64,000 nt of DNA, from the IMG/VR virus record IMGVR_UViG_3300045974_000429, positions 1 through 64,000 of that record, one strand, 5' to 3'. Below the pieces are notes generated by a model. That model searched no databases, was not told where the DNA came from, and saw nothing but the letters and a program-made list of their open reading frames with translations. The translations under genes and the position numbers were made by a program. Position 1 is the first letter of the stretch; each line of letters starts with the position of its first letter. Below, piece by piece: positions 1,141-11,108 of the stretch. This DNA is from a virus.

Positions 1141-2673
1141 CTATCGCCGGAGGGTCGCGACGCGCATGGGTTCAATCGCCTGCATAGCGCCAGCCCTGGC
1201 GGCCTCGCGAGCGAACCAGCAGGCCATTAACCTGTCGCCGACGTGGGCCTTGGGATCGTAGTGGAGCATCTCGTCGATCCACTTCCCGACCTCCGGGCTC
1301 GTGCGCCCCCCGTCGTTGGGGATGGCCCACTTGCCGCCATACATCTCGGTCGCCAGGGACTCCACGCCGAACTCGGCGTTCTTGTTCGTGCCGGTCGTAA
1401 AGCTGCGGATCGGAATATGTGCCGCGTCGTTCCGCGTGAACTGAACGATAAATTGCTGCGCCGCGTTGCTCTCCACGTAGACGACGGAGTTGTACCTGCG
1501 GTGCGCCTCGCGGATGCGGTTCACAATATCCGGCCCCGACCAACGCCCCGACTCCAAGTCGACGACCTCGCGGGTTCCGGCGGGGAGCACGGAGCCCGAA
1601 GGGTGGACGAGGATCGTGAACAGGGCGGTCAGGTCCGCGCTGGCCTTCTGAGAGACGGCGAGATCCACGCCCGTGTAGGTCTTGTAGCCGGGCAGGAGCT
1701 GCGGGAGGCCGAGCGGCATCATGCGCCGCCCCTCTCCGAGCTTCAGGGCGCGCTCGATGTACTCGCGCTTGAAGCGGGCCGCGTCGTCGTCCCGCGCGAT
1801 GCAGAGCATCTGCCGGGCAAACTCCAGGGGGGAGCTTTCCGCGCGGCGGCGCGCGACGCGCTCCAGGGGCCACCGCTCCGGCCAGTGGCTCTGCCCGTAG
1901 GTGAGGCTCGCCGGGTCGTCATCGATGACCGGGAATCGAACGGCTGCTCCGGGGTCGTGCGCGCTCCATCTCTTGGCCAGGACGTGGAGGAGATCCTCCG
2001 GGTGCCACGCCGTCCCGATGCAGAGCACGCGCGCCCTGTGTGTGAGGCGGCCGAGGAAGGTGGCGTCGTACCAATTCACGAGCCCCTCTCGCTGCGCAGG
2101 CGTCAGGGTATTTTCGTAGTCGAGCACGTCGTCCAGGATGAGCCGGTCGAGGCGAGCGCCGAGGACGTTGCCGTGGACGCCCAGCGCCTGGATGGAAGGG
2201 TCTTTCGCCACTGTGCTCCGCTTGACCGTGATCGCCGAGGCCGTCCAGGGCAGCGCGGGCTTCAGGTCGGGGAATACCTTGTGGAGCTTCTCCGACTTCT
2301 GAATATACGCGGAAATGATCCTCAATATCTTCTGCGCCTGTCCGGCCGTGTTCGAGCAAATCGCGAAACGGAGTTCGGGATTTCTGCCCAGCTCCCATAT
2401 GGTCCGAGCCACCGCAGCCTGCGAGGTTTTGGCCGCCTCCACGTGCGCCCATATCAGGAGCCGGTCGTGCCTGTCGGCAAGCTCATGCCAGCGTTTATGC
2501 GGCCAGCTCTGCATGATGCCGTGCCCTGTGGACTCGTCCTGGAGAACGTACTCGCAGAATGAATTAATATCCCTGCGAGCCATTTCCACGCGGAGGCCGT
2601 CGAGGGCTCGCAGGCGCGCCGCGATTTCCGCGTGGGGAAGCGGCGCGGGCATTTCCTGCACAAGTTGACTCAC
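1141..2673 (-). CDS. terL: terminase large subunit (packaging ATPase/nuclease)
   Basis: 510 aa, normal for the family. The ATPase domain has a degenerate Walker A-type loop HVEAAKTSQ (77-85), an adenine-motif region FAICSNTAGQA (103-113) and Walker B DRLILDD (176-182). The RNase H-like nuclease domain shows the three expected acidic residues: D337 in YTGVDLAVS, E401 in VVYVES and D480 in HVGDRLMA. It cuts and translocates phage DNA into the prohead through the portal. The GTG start overlaps the upstream stop (GTGA). terS lies two genes upstream; the portal gene is not in this window. Confidence 0.93.
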   Translation of the reverse strand: MSQLVQEMPAPLPHAEIAARLRALDGLRVEMARRDINSFCEYVLQDESTGHGIMQSWPHKRWHELADRHDRLLIWAHVEAAKTSQAAVARTIWELGRNPELRFAICSNTAGQAQKILRIISAYIQKSEKLHKVFPDLKPALPWTASAITVKRSTVAKDPSIQALGVHGNVLGARLDRLILDDVLDYENTLTPAQREGLVNWYDATFLGRLTHRARVLCIGTAWHPEDLLHVLAKRWSAHDPGAAVRFPVIDDDPASLTYGQSHWPERWPLERVARRRAESSPLEFARQMLCIARDDDAARFKREYIERALKLGEGRRMMPLGLPQLLPGYKTYTGVDLAVSQKASADLTALFTILVHPSGSVLPAGTREVVDLESGRWSGPDIVNRIREAHRRYNSVVYVESNAAQQFIVQFTRNDAAHIPIRSFTTGTNKNAEFGVESLATEMYGGKWAIPNDGGRTSPEVGKWIDEMLHYDPKAHVGDRLMACWFAREAARAGAMQAIEPMRVATLRR

Positions 2674-3113: not shown

Positions 3114-3812
3114 CTAATTCTGCATTTCCTGGGGCGGGCTGGAGATATTCTGGCCGGGGGCGAGCCCCAATTCCTTCGCGCGGTCGAGCGCGTTGGCGGC
3201 GGCCTTCAATTCCCGCTCCATGTCCGCGAGGGTGAGCGCGTCGTCGTTGGAGAGGCCGGCGATGGCGATGACGTCGGAGGGCTGCCCGAGGCGACGGCGC
3301 TCCATGACCTGGGCCATTTCCGCGATGCTCGCGACACGGGCGGCGGAAGTGATGAACCGCTGGAGGACGAGCATCGCGGCGGTGGGGTCGCCCTTGAGCC
3401 TGCCGGCCTTGACGTCCTCCACGATTTGTTTGCCCAGCTCCTGGGCAGCGGGGAAGACCAGGGCGATGACGCCGAGGGAGGCGGAGGCGGCCTGCCGCAC
3501 GTTCCTGACGAGCTTGGCCTCTTCCGCGAGCTGCGTGGAGGCGTCCTCCACGACGGCTTTCGTGCGGGTCATCTCCTGCTGCGCGTAGGCGAGCTTCTCT
3601 CTGGCGCGCTGCTGCTCTCCCTCCAGGGTGGTCTTGATGGGGACGGCCCACGGGGTCGTGGCCTGGGTCCAGCCGGCGAGCCACGCCTTCTTCGCCGTGC
3701 GCTGGTCGCAGCCCGAGACTTGTGCTGCGTGGCGGTAGTTGCCCGGCTTGTTCTTGAAGGCTTCCATCAGCCGATCGTACAGATCCTGCGTGATTTTCTT
3801 ACGGTTTGGCAT
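3114..3812 (-). CDS. terS: terminase small subunit (putative)
   Basis: 232 aa. The N-terminus carries a helix-turn-helix of the kind used by small terminase subunits (YDRLMEAFKNKPGNYRHAAQ, then SGCDQRTAKKAW, residues 12-45). A long Ala/Glu/Gln-rich helical middle (about 75-170) would form the oligomeric core, and the C-terminus is low in complexity. It recognises the phage packaging site and loads TerL, encoded two genes downstream. The ATG at 3812 has only a weak ribosome-binding site. A TTG at 3851 would add 13 residues. Confidence 0.75.
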   Translation of the reverse strand: MPNRKKITQDLYDRLMEAFKNKPGNYRHAAQVSGCDQRTAKKAWLAGWTQATTPWAVPIKTTLEGEQQRAREKLAYAQQEMTRTKAVVEDASTQLAEEAKLVRNVRQAASASLGVIALVFPAAQELGKQIVEDVKAGRLKGDPTAAMLVLQRFITSAARVASIAEMAQVMERRRLGQPSDVIAIAGLSNDDALTLADMERELKAAANALDRAKELGLAPGQNISSPPQEMQN

Positions 3813-3830
3813 GGTCGGCGGATGATGCCA

Positions 3831-3884
3831 CACTTGTGCTCCGCCTGACAAGCCTTATGCAGCGCCCAAAAAAACTTGTGTCAG
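3831..3884 (-). promoter_or_regulatory. leader of terS with CTTGTG words and inverted repeat
   Basis: The region ahead of terS has CACTTGTGC (3831-3839) and the inverted pair CTGACAAG (3845-3852) / CTTGTGTCAG (3875-3884) flanking a T7 run (minus strand). CTGACA followed after 17 nt by TGCATA could be a weak promoter. The same half-site occurs behind terL at 1087-1122. Packaging-site or regulatory use is possible but unproven. Confidence 0.35.
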
Positions 3885-3885
3885 C

Positions 3886-4197
3886 TTAGGTCGGGATCCT
3901 GCGGAAGACGTAGAAGCGAGTGAGCGTCCTGGGTTGGCTGCCCGGAGGGCTTTCAGGTCTGGTGACGCGGACGCAGCGAAAGAGGCCCTTCACGGGTCGC
4001 GTGGGCTCGGAGGAATCTATCTCCCGGAGGAACCTGCGGCGCCAGACGAAGGCTGGGACGCTCGCCGGCTCCAGGCGGCGCTCCGCGAGTCTGCCGGACT
4101 CCGTCCGCCACCTGATGCGGTTCGCCAGCGTCAATGCCGCCTTCACGGCGTTCACGGCTTCCCGAAGGGTTGGCTTCCAGGTTTCTTGCCTGGGCAC
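3886..4197 (-). CDS. small basic paralogue, array member 6
   Basis: 103 aa. Last of six tandem genes that share a plan: an N-terminal LRxxVxAVKA segment (here TLREAVNAVKAALTLA), a central FLR motif (RRRFLREID) and a basic aromatic end (LTRFYVFRRIPT). About one residue in five is Arg or Lys. GTG start after GGAGG. No known domain recognised; strong positive charge suggests nucleic-acid or host-protein binding. Confidence 0.75.
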   Translation of the reverse strand: MPRQETWKPTLREAVNAVKAALTLANRIRWRTESGRLAERRLEPASVPAFVWRRRFLREIDSSEPTRPVKGLFRCVRVTRPESPPGSQPRTLTRFYVFRRIPT

Positions 4198-4198
4198 G

Positions 4199-4504
4199 CT
4201 AGTCCCTCCTGAATCGGTAGACCGTCAGGCGGTGCCGGAACAGCTTGTCTTTGGCCCTGTCGCCGCTCCACTTGCGCCGGTGGGTGGCGCCGCCCTTGAA
4301 GATGCCCTTGAGCAGCCCCAAAAGCGATCCCGTCTTCGGATCTCGTCGGAGGAACATGGGCCGGAGGCGCCAGGGGCGCCGCAAATCGGTGGAGCAGTAG
4401 GTGCGCCACAACCTCCCATCCACCCCGAGGGTGGCGGGTGCGCTCGCGGTCATCATGTTCATCAAAGCCTTCACGGCGTTCACGTCTTCCCTCAAACTCG
4501 ACAC
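4199..4504 (-). CDS. small basic paralogue, array member 5
   Basis: 101 aa. Begins VSSLREDVNAVKALMNMMTA, has RPMFLRRDPKTG in the centre and ends LTVYRFRRD, the clearest match to the array consensus. The GTG at 4504 is preceded by AAGGAGG at 5 nt and overlaps the end of the upstream member by 13 nt. The central segment (GGATHRRKWSGDRAKDKLFR) is very basic. Function unknown. Confidence 0.78.
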   Translation of the reverse strand: MSSLREDVNAVKALMNMMTASAPATLGVDGRLWRTYCSTDLRRPWRLRPMFLRRDPKTGSLLGLLKGIFKGGATHRRKWSGDRAKDKLFRHRLTVYRFRRD

Positions 4505-4794
4505 GAGAGCCTCCTTCGCAGGATGTTCCGGCTGCTGGCGCGGCAGAAGCGTCCCGGGAAGGGGAGGCTCTCGCCCCAATCTCCCCAGGCGCGGACGTAG
4601 GATTCGGGCTCCTCGAATCGGAGGAGCCACTCCCAGGTGTCGCGCTTATGCTTGCGGGGGCGGAAATTCGCCGGCGCGTTGGACAGGAAGGCGCGCATCC
4701 CGAGGGCGTGAGCCAGCTCCGGGCCGGATGGATTTCCCAGGAGCTTCACGAGAGCCTTGGCGGCGTCCACGTCTCGGCGGAGGGAGCGCCTCAC
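4492..4794 (-). CDS. small basic paralogue, array member 4
   Basis: 100 aa. Starts VRRSLRRDVDAAKALVKLLG, contains GMRAFLSNAPANFRPR in place of the usual FLR motif and ends in a run of Arg and Cys (RASSRNILRRRLSCRV). The GTG start overlaps the previous stop (GTGA). It is more divergent in its C-terminal half than members 1, 2 and 5. Function unknown. Confidence 0.75.
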   Translation of the reverse strand: MRRSLRRDVDAAKALVKLLGNPSGPELAHALGMRAFLSNAPANFRPRKHKRDTWEWLLRFEEPESYVRAWGDWGESLPFPGRFCRASSRNILRRRLSCRV

Positions 4795-5201
4795 GGGGTC
4801 TCCTTCAGGCCGGGCAGCAGCCGGTAGGCTTGCCGGATCCGCTTCCTGGGCTTCCTGACCGGGTCGTCCAAATCGAAGACGCGCGTGAGGCAGCAGAGGT
4901 GCTCCGCGCACCGGGTCGGCAGATGGTGGCGCCCGAGAGACGGGTTCTTGGAGTCCCAGGCGCGGGTGTGCCTCCTCCGGCAACGCTCCGGGACTTGGTG
5001 AAAGAACTCGTCCAGGATAACCTCCACGTCGAAACGCTCGGGTCCGGCCTTCCTGACGCACTGCGGCGCGAGGCGCTCCCTGAAATGCTCCTCCGGCGTG
5101 CGCAGCCCGACGAAATTGTCGTTGGGGTATCTGGAATATAGCCTGACGCCGCGCAGCTTGGCCGTTGCCTTGATGGCGTCTATGAGCTGGCGGAGTTTCA
5201 C
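4791..5201 (-). CDS. small basic paralogue, array member 3 (longest, Cys/His-rich)
   Basis: 136 aa. The start KLRQLIDAIKATAKLRGVRL keeps the N-terminal pattern of the array. It then differs: a middle with FDVEVILDEFFHQVPERC and several Cys/His (RRRHTRAW, GRHHLPTRCAEHLCC) that could bind zinc, and a basic end (VRKPRKRIRQAYRLL). Coupled by GTGA to members 2 and 4. It may be an older or extended member. Function unknown. Confidence 0.72.
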   Translation of the reverse strand: MKLRQLIDAIKATAKLRGVRLYSRYPNDNFVGLRTPEEHFRERLAPQCVRKAGPERFDVEVILDEFFHQVPERCRRRHTRAWDSKNPSLGRHHLPTRCAEHLCCLTRVFDLDDPVRKPRKRIRQAYRLLPGLKETP

Positions 5202-5521
5202 CTCACCCTCCTGAACCTGTAGACGACGTCTCGGAGCCCGCGGTGGGAGATGCCGGCGTTCCTGAACAGCCCACTGCGGACTCCCTGCGCGGCGACGGAG
5301 CGCAAAAACATGGGGCCGAGCCTGCAGCTTATCTCCCCAGGAAGGCGCCTGACCGAAACGAGCCTGCGCCCCTCCACCTTCACGAGCCCGGAGACGACCA
5401 GGGCGGTGAATACCGCATCCACGTCCCGGCGGAGAGAGGGCCTATCGCTTTTGATTGCAGAAACCTGATGCCGCTCGGGATTTTCTGGAGGCGCCCCTGT
5501 CGGTTTTGATTTCCGGCTCAC
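5198..5521 (-). CDS. small basic paralogue, array member 2, carrying two iterons
   Basis: 107 aa. The family part begins at about residue 28 (SLRRDVDAVFTALVV), has GPMFLRSVAA and ends VVYRFRRVR. Unlike its neighbours it has about 27 extra N-terminal residues, and that extension is where two copies of the 19-bp origin-type repeat lie (5439-5456, 5494-5511). The extension may therefore exist only because the DNA sites are there. GTG start overlaps the previous stop. Confidence 0.75.
   Translation of the reverse strand: MSRKSKPTGAPPENPERHQVSAIKSDRPSLRRDVDAVFTALVVSGLVKVEGRRLVSVRRLPGEISCRLGPMFLRSVAAQGVRSGLFRNAGISHRGLRDVVYRFRRVR
5439..5511 (-). repeat. pair of iteron-like repeats, 55 bp apart
   Basis: Minus-strand copies AATCAAAAGCGATAGGCCC (ends at 5456) and AATCAAAACCGACAGGGGC (ends at 5511) match the four repeats inside the initiator gene at 25971-26189. 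The first is read here in a different frame (AIKSDRP) from those in the initiator (SKAIGP), so the DNA rather than the protein is conserved. Confidence 0.72.
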
Positions 5522-5769
5522 TTGGTCCTCCAGATCAATTTCGGGCCGCGCCGGTAGGTTTCCACGTACCCCTGCCTAGAGAAGAATTGCCGCGTGAACC
5601 GGCAATTATCGTGCGCCCTGAGAAATCCGGGCCGGAGGCGGAGACCGATCTTGGCGCCGTTGAAATTGTGCTTCTGCGTCGCCCGGTAGAAGGCGATGCT
5701 CTCCTGGATGGGCAGGAGAGCGATGGCGGCCTTGATGGCGTCCACCGTCTCCCGCAGGCTGCGCCTCAC
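5518..5769 (-). CDS. small basic paralogue, array member 1
   Basis: 83 aa, the shortest member. Begins VRRSLRETVDAIKAAIALLP, has RPGFLRAHDNCRFTRQFFSR centrally and ends YRRGPKLIWRTK. GTG start overlaps the upstream stop. First of the six in transcription order. Function unknown; like the others it is strongly basic. Confidence 0.76.
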   Translation of the reverse strand: MRRSLRETVDAIKAAIALLPIQESIAFYRATQKHNFNGAKIGLRLRPGFLRAHDNCRFTRQFFSRQGYVETYRRGPKLIWRTK

Positions 5770-6113
5770 GGCCAGCCTCCCGAGCGCTTCGAGGCCGTCT
5801 CCCGGTCCGGGATGAGGGCGGCGCGCAAGACCTCCACCTGATCGCCTCCCAGGCGCGCGACCGCCGAGGCCGCGAGCAGCACCTCGTCAGGGAGCAGCGG
5901 TTCGCCGCATCGGTAGCACTCCGGCCCGGCCGAGATGAAGACGTCCAAGGCGGCGTAGGTGCCGCACTCGCAGACGAGGATGATGGGAGACACGAGTCCG
6001 ACGCCCGGAGCCGCGCGACCCTGCGGGCGCTGCCAGGAGCGACGTGGGCCGCCCCCCTTCGCGGCGGCGGGCTTCCCGTCGAGCGTCCTGATGTAGAAGA
6101 ACTTGGCGGCCAC
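5766..6113 (-). CDS. zinc-ribbon protein, unknown function
   Basis: 115 aa. A four-Cys cluster (CECGTYAALD, then PECYRCGEPLL, about 55-78) fits a zinc ribbon. The N-terminus is basic with KFFYIRTLDGKPAAAKGGGP. The GTG at 6113 stands 6 nt after GCAAAGAT of element copy B. It follows queE and precedes the paralogue array with a GTGA overlap. It might bind DNA or serve the modification pathway; not recognised further. Confidence 0.68.
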   Translation of the reverse strand: MAAKFFYIRTLDGKPAAAKGGGPRRSWQRPQGRAAPGVGLVSPIILVCECGTYAALDVFISAGPECYRCGEPLLPDEVLLAASAVARLGGDQVEVLRAALIPDRETASKRSGGWP

Positions 6114-6119
6114 GATCCA

Positions 6120-6144
6120 ATCTTTGCGCGGCCGCGCGGGAATT
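6120..6144 (-). promoter_or_regulatory. bipartite element, copy B (degenerate)
   Basis: AATTCCC, 7 nt, CGCGCAAAGAT, with the first half overlapping the queE stop TAA. One mismatch in the 11-mer relative to the other copies. Ends 6 nt before the GTG of the zinc-ribbon gene. Confidence 0.5.
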
Positions 6145-6844
6145 ACTCCAGGCCCCAGAGCTTGTGGAGCTGCGCTCCCAGGCGCCACCTGGGGTGCGCC
6201 TGCACGAACTCCAGGCAACGGGCGAGCGCGGCCGAGTAGGCGGGCAGGGACGCCTCGCCTGGGGCACGGAGGTGGGTCGCCTCAAGCACCTGCGAGGTGA
6301 GCGGGTCGCGGGGCTGAACGAAGTAGTGCGCGGCCGGGAGGGCCACCTCCAGGGCCAGGAGCGCCTCGTCCGCCCAGTCATCCGCGCCGACGACCACCTT
6401 GACCTCCTCGCAAGCGCGAACCACCAAGGGAGGCGCTGCGAGCTTCGGGCTGACGGTCAGGTGATCGACGTAGGCCGGGAGCGGGCGGGTGCCGTTCGTC
6501 TCGACGGCGATCCGCCACCCGTTCCCGTGGAGCGCCTCGACGAGCTGCGCATCCACCTGGAGCAGCGGCTCGCCTCCCGTCAGGACGCACCAGCGGTCTT
6601 CTCCCGAAGCCTCCGGCCAGCGAACCTCCAACTTCGCCAGAATGTCCGCCACGGAGAGCTTGTCGCCGCCCAGAAAATCCGTGTCGCACCAGTGAGCGCA
6701 GGCCCCGGAGCCCTTTTCGCGGTCTTCGGGGCGCCCGCTCCAGAGGTTGCATCCAGAAAATCTGAGGAACACCGATTTCGCTCCCGCGCGAGAACCCTCG
6801 CCCTGGAGCGTGCAGAACACCGACTTGACGAGGTAGGTTTTCAC
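6143..6844 (-). CDS. queE: 7-carboxy-7-deazaguanine synthase (radical SAM)
   Basis: 233 aa. Converts 6-carboxytetrahydropterin to 7-carboxy-7-deazaguanine, the step after QueD. TLQGEGSRAGAKSVFLRFSG at the N-terminus is typical. The radical-SAM cysteines are spaced as in the QueE subfamily with an insert: CNLWSG, then GACAHWCDTDFLGG. VLTGGEPLLQ and VETNGT are the glycine-rich and substrate loops. The GTG start overlaps the queD stop, so the two are coupled. Part of a folE-queC-dpdA-queD-queE block for DNA base modification. Confidence 0.93.
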   Translation of the reverse strand: MKTYLVKSVFCTLQGEGSRAGAKSVFLRFSGCNLWSGRPEDREKGSGACAHWCDTDFLGGDKLSVADILAKLEVRWPEASGEDRWCVLTGGEPLLQVDAQLVEALHGNGWRIAVETNGTRPLPAYVDHLTVSPKLAAPPLVVRACEEVKVVVGADDWADEALLALEVALPAAHYFVQPRDPLTSQVLEATHLRAPGEASLPAYSAALARCLEFVQAHPRWRLGAQLHKLWGLE

Positions 6845-7206
6845 GGCCGGTACTCGCAGCGGCTCGTGCAAGTTTCCTCGATGGCGACCGAGGCGAGGCA
6901 GGGGAGCGCGGGCGCGAGCTGATCGAAGATCCAGCGCGCAAGTTCCTCACTCGTGGGGTTCTCCAAGCCGGTCGTCTCGTTGAGGTGCCAGTGGTCGAGC
7001 TTGGCGTCCACGAGGGGCTGGAGAGCGGCCTTCATCTCGCCGTAGTCCAGGAGCATCCCTGCGCGAGGACCGGAGGTGGCGAGGCCCGAGCCTTCAACCG
7101 CGACCTCCCCCACCCAGGAGTGCCCGTGGAGCCTCGCGCACTTGCCGCCCTGGTGCGGGAGCCTGTGAGACGCTTCGAACCGGAACTTCTTCGTGAGCTT
7201 GAACAT
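6841..7206 (-). CDS. queD: 6-carboxy-tetrahydropterin synthase
   Basis: 121 aa, normal length. Makes 6-carboxytetrahydropterin from dihydroneopterin triphosphate, the FolE product. Zinc and catalytic residues visible: ASHRLP (His), CARLHGHSW (Cys and two His), LDHWHLNE and PTSEELARW near the C-terminus, then the Glu in AIEETCTSRCEY. ATG overlaps the preceding stop (ATGA) and its own stop overlaps the queE start. Confidence 0.93.
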   Translation of the reverse strand: MFKLTKKFRFEASHRLPHQGGKCARLHGHSWVGEVAVEGSGLATSGPRAGMLLDYGEMKAALQPLVDAKLDHWHLNETTGLENPTSEELARWIFDQLAPALPCLASVAIEETCTSRCEYRP

Positions 7207-7937
7207 CACGCCTCCTGGACCTTGGGAGACTTCTTGGAGCCCTTCTTCTTGGGGGGCTCCTGGGGCAGCGGAACCAGCTTGGAGACAGCCGCAGCCTCGC
7301 AGAGCGCGACGAAGGCGCCGGCCGCGTTGCCTGGGCCGGTCATGCCGAACACCGCCAGGACGGCCTTGCAGGCGTCGGCCTGCGGGTCCGTCTCGACCTT
7401 GAAGACGAAGCGGCGCTCCTGGGCGGCGAGCCCCTCCGCCACGGCCGCCTCGTCGTTCTCGGTGGGAAGCGCGGCGGTGGCAGCGACCTCGGCCATCATG
7501 GAGGTGATGTCCTCGACCTCCGGCATCGTGAAGCCGGACAGCTCGATGTCGAGATCGGGAACCTGGGACAACCCGGAGAGCAGCTCGCCGAGCTTGTCGT
7601 AGTCCCACTCGCCGGAGATTTTATTGAGAGCGAGGTTCAGGAGGCGCGCTCGCTCGTCCGAGATGCCCGAGAGGAGCACGACCGGCACCTCGTAGGAGGT
7701 GATCTCCTTCGGAGACTTGCCTCCCTCCGCGAGCAACTCCCGGAGGGCCGCGAGGCGCTGGTGGCCGCCGATGAGGAGGCCGTCGTCCTCGCGCGCGACC
7801 GCGGGCTGAACGAACCCGAACTCCTTCAGGCTGTTCTTGAGCTTCTCCATCTCGTCGCCGCTGATCTGGCGCGGGTTGAGCGGGTCCGCTTGAAGGAACC
7901 CGAGGGGGCGGCTCTGCGGCTGCGGGAGATGAATCAC
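7206..7937 (-). CDS. ParB/sulfiredoxin-fold protein within the deazaguanine cluster
   Basis: 243 aa. The N-terminal domain has ParB-nuclease-like features: PLNPRQISGDEMEKLKNSLK, then FGFVQPAV, LLIGGHQRLAAL (the GxxR-type loop) and a helix with ARLLNLALNKISGEW. The C-terminal third is variable and ends in a Lys-rich tail (PPKKKGSKKSPK). The domain is known in chromosome partition proteins and many phage enzymes acting on DNA or nucleotides. Its place between dpdA and queD, coupled at both ends, suggests a role with DNA modification. A second ParB-like protein is at 28764-29393. Confidence 0.8.
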   Translation of the reverse strand: MIHLPQPQSRPLGFLQADPLNPRQISGDEMEKLKNSLKEFGFVQPAVAREDDGLLIGGHQRLAALRELLAEGGKSPKEITSYEVPVVLLSGISDERARLLNLALNKISGEWDYDKLGELLSGLSQVPDLDIELSGFTMPEVEDITSMMAEVAATAALPTENDEAAVAEGLAAQERRFVFKVETDPQADACKAVLAVFGMTGPGNAAGAFVALCEAAAVSKLVPLPQEPPKKKGSKKSPKVQEA

Positions 7938-9082
7938 GGCGACTCCTTCTTCTTGAGCGAGCGAGAGATCGAGGGCAACGAGTTCGGCGCGTCGCCGCTG
8001 ATGGTGGCGAGGTAGACGCTCATCCCGTTGGAGACGCAGGTCGCCGTGCCGTCGCCGTGCCCACCCATCGGCAGCGCGCCGCACGACAGGTAGAGGTTGT
8101 TCTTGGCGCGCCGCTTGTTCAGCCACTCCTCGGCGCGCTGCCACGCCTCCACGCTGGCGCCGCAGATCAGGTCGCGGTCGTAGCTGCCGGCGTGGCACTG
8201 CGACGGCCGGAGGCGATATTCGGAGAGAAGCGGCGCGGCCTTGAGGAGCGCGCGGTGATCCCGCATGTCGAGCTTCTCCCAGGCGCTCCGCTGGGAGTTG
8301 AACAGGGGCAAGCTGGCGTAGCGAAACGGCGCGGTCCAGGAGGACGAGTCCACGCTGTACCAGGGGAAGTTCTTGAGTGTGTTCCAAGAGGTCATCCCGA
8401 AACCGTGAACCCGCACATCGGGTGGCAATTGGGCGAATGACTGCCGCAGCCACGCAGCCACGAAATCGGGCCGGGCGGAATGCGGCACCATCCCGCCGAA
8501 GGCTAGGTAGTCGGTTCGTCCGAACCAATGCTGTAGATATTTCGGATCTTCCCCCAGATGAAAAACCGGCAATATCTGAACGCAGGACACCCGGCGGAGC
8601 AATTCCTCCGTGGCCCACTGCGTGGCCGCGGGGTCTCCAATTACGTCGAACCCGGCCGCGCAGGTGAAGAGATGCCCCCACCGATTCAACCACTCGGCGT
8701 AACCATCCAACCCAACCGGAGTTCCCGTGGTGAAAGCCGAGAATGCCCCAGAGTCGGCGAAGAGGTCCACCTTCCGATCCGGGAAACAGGCCGAGAGCAG
8801 CGCCTGAATATCCTCATCTCGGTAGTAGAAATAGGAAAGGAGCAGGCGAAGCGGGCGCCGAGGAGGGGCGCGCCCAATATTCGGCACGTCGCGCTGAATA
8901 GCTGGACCCGTAGGCATTCCGAAGTAGATCCGCCCTCCAGAGGCCAACGCCTGCTCACATTGGGTGGGCGGCGCAAGCGCCTCCATGGAACCGCCGCCAC
9001 GCCCCAAATAACCCGGCGTATCGCTCATGGCGCGCATATCAGCCCCCCCCCGTCCCTGCGCGTCACCGAGATAGATTTGCAC
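7934..9082 (-). CDS. dpdA: DpdA-like DNA guanine transglycosylase
   Basis: 382 aa. Related to tRNA-guanine transglycosylase; phage relatives exchange guanine in DNA for a 7-deazaguanine. Recognisable segments in order: LLLSYFYYRDED, DLFADSGAFSAFT (about 110-122), FDVIGDP, LPVFHLGED, YLAFGGMVP, then VHGFGMTSWNTL and YSVDSSSW. The order DSGAF, then GGMV, then SVDS follows DpdA proteins. GTG at 9082 has AGGAG at 6 nt, but a G9 run 30 nt inside the gene and an ATGA-coupled ATG at 9165 in another frame leave the true N-terminus open. Downstream gene coupled by GTGA. Confidence 0.85.
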   Translation of the reverse strand: MQIYLGDAQGRGGADMRAMSDTPGYLGRGGGSMEALAPPTQCEQALASGGRIYFGMPTGPAIQRDVPNIGRAPPRRPLRLLLSYFYYRDEDIQALLSACFPDRKVDLFADSGAFSAFTTGTPVGLDGYAEWLNRWGHLFTCAAGFDVIGDPAATQWATEELLRRVSCVQILPVFHLGEDPKYLQHWFGRTDYLAFGGMVPHSARPDFVAAWLRQSFAQLPPDVRVHGFGMTSWNTLKNFPWYSVDSSSWTAPFRYASLPLFNSQRSAWEKLDMRDHRALLKAAPLLSEYRLRPSQCHAGSYDRDLICGASVEAWQRAEEWLNKRRAKNNLYLSCGALPMGGHGDGTATCVSNGMSVYLATISGDAPNSLPSISRSLKKKESP

Positions 9083-9165
9083 AACCCACTCCTGATGCTC
9101 TGAGGTGACCCGTCGGCGCCCAATGAGTTGGGATGCGAATAGGTGCAGCCAAGATATATTATCAT
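9025..9165 (-). CDS. short ORF coupled to queC, possible alternative dpdA N-terminus
   Basis: 46 codons starting MIIYLGCTYSHPNSLGADG at an ATG that overlaps the queC stop (ATGA) after GGAG. It crosses a run of nine G (9044-9052) and stops at 9025. One extra G, or two fewer, would join it in frame to dpdA. It may be the real start of dpdA, a leader peptide, or noise. Codons are less GC-biased than in queC. Confidence 0.35.
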   Translation of the reverse strand: MIIYLGCTYSHPNSLGADGSPQSIRSGLCKSISVTRRDGGGLICAP

Positions 9166-9848
9166 CTCTCCGCTGGGTCCGACTCGCCGGCCTCTGCGAA
9201 TCCCTTGGCGCGCAGCACGCAGGCCGCGCAAACGCCGCAGCCGGGGCGCTTGCCCTCGTAGCAGGTCCGCGATAGCGCGAGCGCCTCCCAGCAGCCGGGG
9301 AGCCGCCTCGCGAGCTTCACGGACTCGGCCTTGGTGATGTGCATGAGGGGGGTGTGGATGCGGAGCGGGCCGGCGCTGGATGGCATCGCGAGCGTGAGCG
9401 CCTTCTCCATCGCGTCGATGAACTCGCGCCGGCAATCCGGGTAGCCCGAGTAGTCGGTCTGGCAGACGCCGGTGTAGATGTCTCTCGCACCTTCCCGTAC
9501 CGCGATGGCCGCGGCGACCCCGAGCAGGAGCGCGTTGCGCCCCGGCACGAACGAGGAGGGGAGCCCCTGCGGCATGGCGGCGTCCGGGATGCCTCCTTCC
9601 CAGGTCAGCGGCTTGGAGGCGTCGGTGAGGGCGCTGGAGGTGGTGAGCTTGCCGAGGGCTTCCAGCTCCACGCGCTCGAAGGGAACCCCGGCCAGCTTGG
9701 CGATCTCCTCCGCGGAAGCGCGCTCAGCCACGTGCCGCTGGCCGTAGCCGATGCTGACGGCGTGGACGCCGTCGTGCAGCGTCTTCGCGAGGTAGAGGGT
9801 GGTGGTGGAATCCTGGCCGCCGGAAAGCAGAACGACTGCGCGCGTCAT
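9162..9848 (-). CDS. queC: 7-cyano-7-deazaguanine (preQ0) synthase
   Basis: 228 aa. ATP-dependent conversion of 7-carboxy-7-deazaguanine to preQ0. The N-terminal PP-loop is VVLLSGGQDSTT (residues 5-16). RNALLLGVAAAIAV and QTDYSGYPDCRREF fit QueC. Four cysteines at the C-terminus (CYEGKRPGCGVCAACVLRA) form the zinc site. ATG overlaps the folE stop. With folE, queD and queE it completes the route from GTP to preQ0. Confidence 0.94.
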   Translation of the reverse strand: MTRAVVLLSGGQDSTTTLYLAKTLHDGVHAVSIGYGQRHVAERASAEEIAKLAGVPFERVELEALGKLTTSSALTDASKPLTWEGGIPDAAMPQGLPSSFVPGRNALLLGVAAAIAVREGARDIYTGVCQTDYSGYPDCRREFIDAMEKALTLAMPSSAGPLRIHTPLMHITKAESVKLARRLPGCWEALALSRTCYEGKRPGCGVCAACVLRAKGFAEAGESDPAER

Positions 9849-10486
9849 GCGAGACTCCTTGTGAGCAGGGAGAGAAGCTCAGCTCTGGCCGGTGCGTCGC
9901 TGCGGAAGCAGCCGAGCATGGTCGAGGTGGTGGTGATGTGGCCCGGAGCCTTCACACCCCTCATGCTCATGCAGAGGTGCTCGGCCTGGAGGATGACGCC
10001 GACGCCCAAGGGGCGGAGCTGGCACTGGAGGTGCTCGGCGACCTGCTCCGTGATCTGCTCCTGGGTCTGGAAGCGGTGCGCGAAATGCTCCACGACTCGG
10101 GCGAGCTTGGAGAGCCCGACGATCTGCTTGCTCTCGCCGGGCAGATAACCCACCGCCGCGGATCCCACGAAGGGGAGGCCGTGGTGGGCGCAGACCGAGT
10201 AGAACGGGATCTTGCCGACCGCAATGATCGCGTCGTAATTCCCGTTCGGGAACGTCGTCAGCTTGGGAGGCGTTTCCCGCTGCGTGTGCCAGGAGAGCAG
10301 GAACTTCGCCACGCGGTCGGGGCTGTCCTTGAGATGCGGATCTTGGAGGTCGTAGCCGAGAGCTTGGATGATCTGCGCCCAAGCCAGGGCGATGACGGCC
10401 TGCCGTTCCGCGTGCGGGTCTTGCACCATGCCAGAGCACCTCTTGCCGGAAACCTTAGCGCGCTTCACGCGCCCGTGTCTAGTCAT
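9845..10486 (-). CDS. folE: GTP cyclohydrolase I
   Basis: 213 aa. Opens GTP to dihydroneopterin triphosphate, the first step of deazaguanine synthesis. The zinc-binding SVCAHHGLPFVG (Cys, His) and CMSMRGVKAPGH (Cys) motifs are present, with VGLSKLARVVEHFAHRFQTQ between them. The ATG at 10486 overlaps the upstream stop; another ATG at 10429 also has a reasonable site and would remove 19 basic residues. First intact gene of the modification block. Confidence 0.92.
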   Translation of the reverse strand: MTRHGRVKRAKVSGKRCSGMVQDPHAERQAVIALAWAQIIQALGYDLQDPHLKDSPDRVAKFLLSWHTQRETPPKLTTFPNGNYDAIIAVGKIPFYSVCAHHGLPFVGSAAVGYLPGESKQIVGLSKLARVVEHFAHRFQTQEQITEQVAEHLQCQLRPLGVGVILQAEHLCMSMRGVKAPGHITTTSTMLGCFRSDAPARAELLSLLTRSLA

Positions 10487-11108
10487 CTGCGCCCCCTTCC
10501 GAATAGCGAGTATTGCCGCCGCGCAAGATCCAACGGCGCAACAGTCACAGCGAATCGCGAGGCTGAGGTTCCATCGAAGCTGTCTGCTCCAGCAGCCGCG
10601 CACCGCGCGATCCTGCGCGCAGTATTCACCCGCCCAACGTGGAGCCAGCAACCCCGCTCCCGCGCGAGGCTGCCCCAAGCCTCCATCGTCGAAAGCTTCC
10701 AATCAGTGCTGCCTCCAATAAATATTCCAACTCGCGGCCCGAGGTACGGCCGCACATCCGCAGCGCGCATTCCATCCTGCACAGCCAGTAGAGCCTTCGG
10801 AGCACTCCCAAGAACTCGGTCAACCCAAGAAATTGAGAGAGAGAGAGAGAAGCTGAACCGCCGGCTACAATATCGGGAAGAACTACCCAATCAGCTCCGG
10901 CTCCGAGGACGCGCAAGCTTCTCTCGAACCCGACGAAGTCGAACTCTCGCTTCTGCTGGTAGGCAGACCACGCTCCATTATCCAGGGCATAGAGAAACCC
11001 AGCCAAAGGCTTCTGGCGCGTCTGAGGCGACATGAGAAGGCGCCAACCGGCCACTCTCAACGCTTGGAGATTTCGCCTCGTTCCGGTGATTGTGGCATAA
11101 GCAATCAC
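10483..11108 (-). pseudogene. second transglycosylase-like (DpdA-type) gene, out of frame at a (TC)8 repeat
   Basis: Two frames together spell one TGT/DpdA-type protein. Frame 1 from GTG 11108 (coupled to sbcC): LYALDNGAWSAY and ADWVVLPDIVAGGSASLSLS, about 86 residues. Frame 2 continues at the repeat: SAPKALLAVQDGM, GIFIGGSTDWKL, WLHVGRVNTARRI and GADSFDGTSAS, to the stop at 10483. The break falls in a run of eight TC units (10835-10850). With seven units the gene would be open for about 207 aa; with eight it ends at 10626 after 160 aa. Either phase-variable, expressed by frameshifting, or a sequence error. The downstream folE start overlaps its full-length stop, which supports the long form as the native one. 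Confidence 0.72.
10835..10850. repeat. dinucleotide repeat (GA)8 / (TC)8
   Basis: Sixteen bases of pure GA on the plus strand, inside the transglycosylase-like gene, exactly where its reading frame changes. Gain or loss of a unit alters the frame by two bases: seven or ten units would be in frame, eight is not. Confidence 0.9.

Follow-up and report, generated by a model that had tools for sequence, protein, structure and literature searches.

Six tandem small basic-protein genes with one common N-terminal segment beside the terminase genes of a phage

What do six small genes that lie in a row beside the terminase genes of a phage have in common, and what might such an array do? The genes in question are in the window, by which we mean the whole stretch of DNA analysed, which covers bases 1 to 64,000 of a virus record 83,744 bases (83.7 kb) long. 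An earlier note on this DNA described them as six paralogues with three shared segments, a description that our analyses correct to six genes with one common N-terminal helix.

The array and its genomic setting

The window carries genes for a tail sheath, a baseplate wedge, a DNA polymerase, SbcC/SbcD-like and UvsX-like proteins, a portal and a large terminase (TerL), and no tRNA genes were found in its 64 kb. The best cultured-phage records are ~25% identical for terminase and polymerase and 29% identical for the portal, and at the sequence level the phage is distant from cultured phages. The array is situated between a cluster of 7-deazaguanine modification genes and the presumed small terminase (TerS) and TerL genes (Table 1). 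Because that cluster has a complete set of preQ0-pathway genes together with a DpdA-like gene, the DNA of the phage probably carries a 7-deazaguanine. The gene immediately upstream of the array overlaps gene A by 4 nt, and neither it nor the presumed TerS gene had a family match in the libraries searched; the presumed TerS also had no match by tblastn against 50,697 phage records.

Table 1. Features of the array and its surroundings (positions are those of the window)
Feature	Coordinates	Strand	Size and start	Remarks
Gene A	5518..5769	-	83 aa, GTG	LRETVDAIKA at residue 5; RPGFLR mid-protein
Gene B	5198..5521	-	107 aa, GTG	N-terminal extension; LRRDVDAVFT at residue 30; GPMFLR; VYRFRR end
Gene C	4791..5201	-	136 aa, GTG	LRQLIDAIKA at residue 3; probable orthologue of L003:30-422
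Gene D	4492..4794	-	100 aa, GTG at 4794	LRRDVDAAKA at residue 5; probable orthologue of L003:419-862
Gene E	4199..4504	-	101 aa, GTG at 4504	LREDVNAVKA at residue 4; RPMFLR; VYRFRR end
Gene F	3886..4197	-	103 aa, GTG	LREAVNAVKA at residue 11; RRRFLR; YVFRR end
Neighbour upstream of A	5766..6218	-	up to 150 aa, start uncertain	CxCG...CxxC
7-deazaguanine modification genes	6143..10702	-		QueE-, QueD-, ParB-like, queuine tRNA-ribosyltransferase (DpdA)-like, QueC-like, GTP cyclohydrolase; upstream of array
Presumed TerS	3114..3851	-		downstream of F; presumed by position; 53% identical in L003
TerL	1141..2673	-		query for finding relatives

The array comprises six consecutive genes, designated A to F in the order of their transcription, whose span (5769-3886, minus strand) and sizes (83-136 residues) are as the earlier note gave them. 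All six start with GTG and most are preceded by an AGGAGG/GGAGG-like ribosome site. Stop/start overlaps, which had been thought to join the genes throughout, were found at four of the five junctions (4 nt at A/B, B/C and C/D, 13 nt at D/E), but not between E and F, which are separated by a gap of 1 nt. The encoded proteins have a pI of 10.2-11.9 and an Arg content of 16-19%. In the genes the G+C fraction is 0.76-0.87 at third and 0.45-0.59 at second codon positions, resembling that of the terminase genes (0.85 at third positions of TerL). The array genes are real genes, an artefact of composition being ruled out by the codon-position G+C, the ribosome sites and the keeping of the C/D pair in a relative, the contig L003.

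Searches with the array proteins of Pfam, PHROGs, NCBIfam, PADLOC and a set of solved structures found nothing above noise, so that the view that they belong to no known family holds for these collections. The matches dismissed as noise were those of A to ADPrib_exo_Tox (E 0.0063, at 16.3 bits below the cut-off of 23.4) and phrog_13241 (E 0.3), of B to DUF2905 (E 0.22) and FliZ (0.19), of F to the PADLOC profile Cas11e (E 0.0075), and those to ribosomal protein L3 chains among the solved structures (0.27). No resemblance to known inhibitors was found, and the titles and abstract starts of open-licence articles in PubMed Central on tandem paralogue arrays beside terminase genes and on operons of this small-protein kind gave nothing recognisable as this family.

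One N-terminal segment on dissimilar bodies

The part that defines the family is its first ~16-18 residues (LRxxVxAxKA..L). The common N-terminal motif noticed earlier is indeed present in all six proteins, where it reads LRxxVxAxKA, and since the six genes were chosen by this motif, its conservation among them is partly a product of that choice; two further members in L003, r1 and r2, were reached via the terminase, independently of the motif. It is absent from the rest of the window on both strands, and the motif expression matched six times in the window, twice in L003 and nowhere else in the two. Profile searches of the whole 83.7-kb record recovered the six array genes and no other protein carrying the helix.

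Leave-one-out profiles, in which each of the eight members (A-F, r1 and r2) was sought among the 760 open frames of the window and L003, located the shared signal. With profiles of the 18 N-terminal residues, the left-out member was ahead of every non-family frame in all eight cases (E 4.7e-6 to 0.032), and whole-protein profiles also recovered all eight, C barely so (0.5 versus 1.1), whereas profiles of the remainder recovered none of the eight and, within A, B, E and F, one of four. Therefore, what all members have in common is their first 16-18 residues. Structure prediction by AlphaFold2 is of the same tenor: a model of E (with B, A and F) was poor throughout (mean pLDDT 41.8), and in a model of A (with seven relatives; mean pLDDT 56.0) the only confident part was a helix at residues 5-18 (block means 86 and 80). 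Shuffled sequences were as amphipathic as the helix in 27 to 635 of 2000 cases, and the helix does not consistently surpass them. Residues of the motif are conserved while their codons vary between copies, and the use of different codons for kept residues therefore points to selection on the protein. The motifs of E and F are identical at 24 of 25 nt, which may reflect local copying (gene conversion) between these two genes.

The two other segments that had been described as common to all six proteins, a central FLR and a basic YRFRR-like end, were seen in four (A, B, E and F) and three (B, E and F) of them, respectively, and are, as read from the sequences, features of a subset of members. 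Among whole proteins, 10 of the 15 pairwise local scores within the array were reached by no more than 5 of 500 shuffles, and those of B-C, C-D, C-E, C-F and D-F by 14 to 163. When everything through the end of the ten-residue motif was removed and the 28 pairs formed by the six proteins with r1 and r2 were compared, the bodies that stood out were B-E (0 of 1000 shuffles), C-r1 (1), D-r2 (2) and C-r2 (12); among the six alone, B-E is the only body pair clear of shuffles, and at this level B and E are the one clear duplication. Separately, Cys and His residues of gene C (CRRxH, HHL and HxC) are kept in L003:30-422, in a gappy alignment, and could form a metal site.

A single kept helix on changing bodies fits an address joined to a cargo. 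We tentatively favor the interpretation, at a probability of roughly 0.4, that the array encodes fast-diverging small basic accessory effectors bearing a conserved docking or leader helix, most like Ip1-3 of phage T4. A serious alternative, and the likeliest of those considered, is that all members have one fast-evolving small basic fold of which the helix, for instance through a role in dimerisation or nucleic-acid binding, is the best-kept element; the proteins would then be DNA- or RNA-binding regulators or packaging helpers of the terminase operon. That would suit the high pI and the 16-19% of Arg, the position directly before the presumed terS, the likeness of B and E over most of their length, and an alignment in which, by eye, an FLR strand and a basic strand at the C-terminus are common to A, B, E and F. 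The failure of remainder profiles to recover members, even in three of four cases within A, B, E and F, argues against a single fold, as do the strongly unlike lengths and bodies and the lack of any match to a nucleic-acid-binding family in the libraries searched. The DNA-binding silencing that the earlier note suggested has the high pI as its sole point in favour.

Relatives of the array and its locus

The relative L003 is an IMG/VR contig of 10,519 bp whose TerL is 80% identical to that of the window. It has at least two family members in the same slot, r1 (30-422) and r2 (419-862), which overlap by 4 nt as C and D do and have kept their order; the contig ends just before r1, so the slot of A and B would lie outside it. 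Approximately 185 bases after r2 comes the counterpart of the presumed TerS, and E and F are without counterparts in L003, the gene content beside the presumed terS thus differing between the two phages. Identities in the motif are 9/16 for C and r1 and 11/16 for D and r2, and those in the bodies are 35% and 36%, respectively. By comparison, the presumed TerS is 53% identical, the gene that comes next 57% and TerL 80%; judged by these identities, the array bodies diverge faster than the neighbouring terminase genes. The match of C to r1 is weak (BLAST E 2.8; 1/1000 in the shuffle test), and r1 and r2 are apparently the orthologues of C and D, two members that appear to predate the split from the L003 phage. 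The motif of r2 is nearest to that of D; that of r1 is nearest to C by identity and to A by BLOSUM score (41 versus 36), and the evidence for copy-specific motifs is therefore moderate. Together, the similar bodies of B and E, the orthologue-like pairs C/r1 and D/r2 and the lack of E and F counterparts in L003 support repeated duplication, as proposed earlier for this array, and fast divergence. The gene after TerL in L003 (3678-4724), in a slot occupied by a methyltransferase-like gene in the window, is presumably a PAPS-reductase/QueC-like ATP pyrophosphatase, as it has an SGKDS motif.

Further members were sought by several routes, and the family was found in two phages among the sequences searched, the window phage and that of L003. 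A scan with A found no further members and one with r1 found only r1 itself, and tblastn of E and of r2 against the 50,697 phage records gave no match. A DNA pattern combining ribosome site and motif matched five stretches in viral contigs, the L003 contig being the sole relative among them, and at least 119 stretches in genome contigs. Three matches were rejected: those in G010 and G011 have internal stop codons, and the G010 stretch when read proved to be no relative, and that in G002 (E 0.01) is out of frame with the longer helicase-like ORF that contains it. In a count of candidate ORFs over the loci collected (1,167,824 bases, three duplicates dropped), only pieces of the window and L003 had more than one candidate; 11 loci had one each, which were taken as chance.

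Farther terminase relatives comprised 24 loci at 51-58% and 11 at 23-37% best-segment identity. The motif was not found in the 24 (best frame outside L003, E 3.3), an absence that is informative for some loci only, since many have little sequence upstream of TerL; one of the 11, L022, has a lone motif-like string in a small ORF that was taken as chance. Clusters of at least three similar ORFs were seen at three of the 12 loci that extend 4 kb or more upstream, namely the window (B, E and F), which is counted among the 12, and L153 and L156, both from the set at 51-58%; the other 14 loci, with less upstream sequence, have none. The L153 cluster (5616-9026) consists of nine small genes with a zinc-ribbon-like CG...TCxxC pattern, and a related set is repeated in L156, its gene number uncertain as ORF calls partly overlap. 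Frames that match a profile built from the L153 genes occur in L157 (192-635), L160 and L161 (5130-5507) as well, but at E 0.01 there is none among the 760 of the window and L003; the set has no Pfam family above cut-off and no convincing match in cultured phages. Like the array, these sets are small paralogues arranged in tandem upstream of a TerL of the same kinship, but they are unrelated to the array in sequence and range in pI from acidic to basic. Therefore, terminase-proximal multi-copy families of small genes exist in more than one lineage, not as the same family, and the L153 and L156 clusters mark the terminase-proximal region as a site of accessory-gene turnover. Two other observations were made in these loci. 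In L149 (8447-10969), a terminase-related ORF of 840 residues continues past a GK-like motif into what we take to be the start of an intein (Hint), and L002 (9828-12428) encodes an 866-residue protein of mostly ESASPADAQA-like repeats, without a family match, beside a tail-spike-like gene.

Coupled, mutually dissimilar small genes at one spot of a phage genome, with a divergence exceeding that of their neighbours, would also be expected of an operon of anti-CRISPR-like or other intracellular inhibitors without a packaging role, in which the helix would be a remnant of ancestry or an oligomerisation piece. We consider this distinctly unlikely. A helix-turn-helix regulator (aca) beside the genes is a mark of an anti-CRISPR operon, and no recognisable one adjoins the array: the neighbours at 5766-6218 and 3114-3851 have no helix-turn-helix family match, an absence by profile that is weak evidence. 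In addition, a kept common N-terminus is not a known feature of anti-CRISPR operons, which also counts against this explanation; anti-CRISPR operons are similar to the array in grouping several small dissimilar genes at one spot, but the array has its common N-terminal helix. Mostly decaying or neutral duplicates of little function that chance alone has preserved within a G+C-rich operon might account for the low mutual similarity of the bodies, an Arg-richness like that of random G+C-rich frames and the lack of E and F in L003, but are improbable given the ribosome sites, tight overlaps, gene-like codon-position G+C and the order and 4-nt overlap of C and D kept in L003.

The proposed address and cargo in comparison with known systems

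Under the favored interpretation of a conserved helix on diverging effectors, the helix would be a common address that serves a single partner as leader or docking surface, and the changing, target-specific part would be the bodies. The most likely use of such proteins would be as counter-defence effectors, each member suited to another host target, and by analogy it is plausible that the array proteins inhibit host defence, as the earlier note had suggested. In a capsid version of this interpretation, in itself unlikely, the helix would bring the proteins into the capsid for entry with the DNA, and the injected proteins would shield the probably 7-deazaguanine-modified DNA from modification-dependent nucleases, as Ip1-3 shield glucosylated DNA. 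Phage 7-deazaguanine modifications are themselves described as a guard against host restriction (PMC6884629). A broader proposal, on which we would place similarly low odds, is that phages with 7-deazaguanine DNA-modification genes possess address-plus-cargo effectors without sequence kinship to those of T4. The proteins of such a tandem cassette would bear one interchangeable leader helix, which might direct them to the capsid, on rapidly re-made bodies that each act against another host nuclease, and multi-copy families of this sort would recur near the terminase across the wider phage group, in other lineages as the zinc-ribbon type.

Like the array, Ip1, Ip2 and Ip3 (IPI-IPIII) of T4 are small basic accessory proteins with a short common N-terminus and dissimilar bodies, a likeness to which the bodies of B and E, C and r1, and D and r2 are exceptions. 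T4 DNA is modified, and the window phage has its 7-deazaguanine genes. Ip1-3 are described as having only an N-terminal leader in common and as blocking different Type IV enzymes (PMC12373910), and for IPIII it is reported that the first 10 residues suffice for packaging, the mature parts of the internal proteins being divergent (PMC9026906). The array differs in being six coupled genes beside the terminase, known here from the genes alone, and no match to a described internal protein or phage family rose above noise in PHROGs and Pfam. Leaders of T4-type internal proteins have an LxE-like cleavage site, whereas such a string (LRE) is at the motif in only four of the eight family members (A, E, F and r2) and absent from B, C, D and r1. 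Prohead proteases of the T4 type (PF03420) and the HK97 type (PF04586) were not found in the record, which is perhaps incomplete and in which a diverged one could escape. Because no protease of either type was found, LxE is at the motif in only half of the members and no other carrier of the helix was seen in the record, we do not class the array with the T4-type internal proteins, although it may work as they do.

A kept N-terminus on diverged bodies is also the feature that the array has in common with the ejection-protein paralogues gp53 and gp54 of the giant phage SPN3US, which are described as having 15 identical N-terminal residues and extensively diverged bodies (PMC5694885). Those two are processed head proteins that were seen in virions, whereas the array is represented by its genes. 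If the favored interpretation is correct, the array points to a site of counter-defence in phages that have 7-deazaguanine genes, and its short N-terminal signature would find undescribed effector genes whose bodies are invisible to profiles, as the T4 leader did for ip genes.
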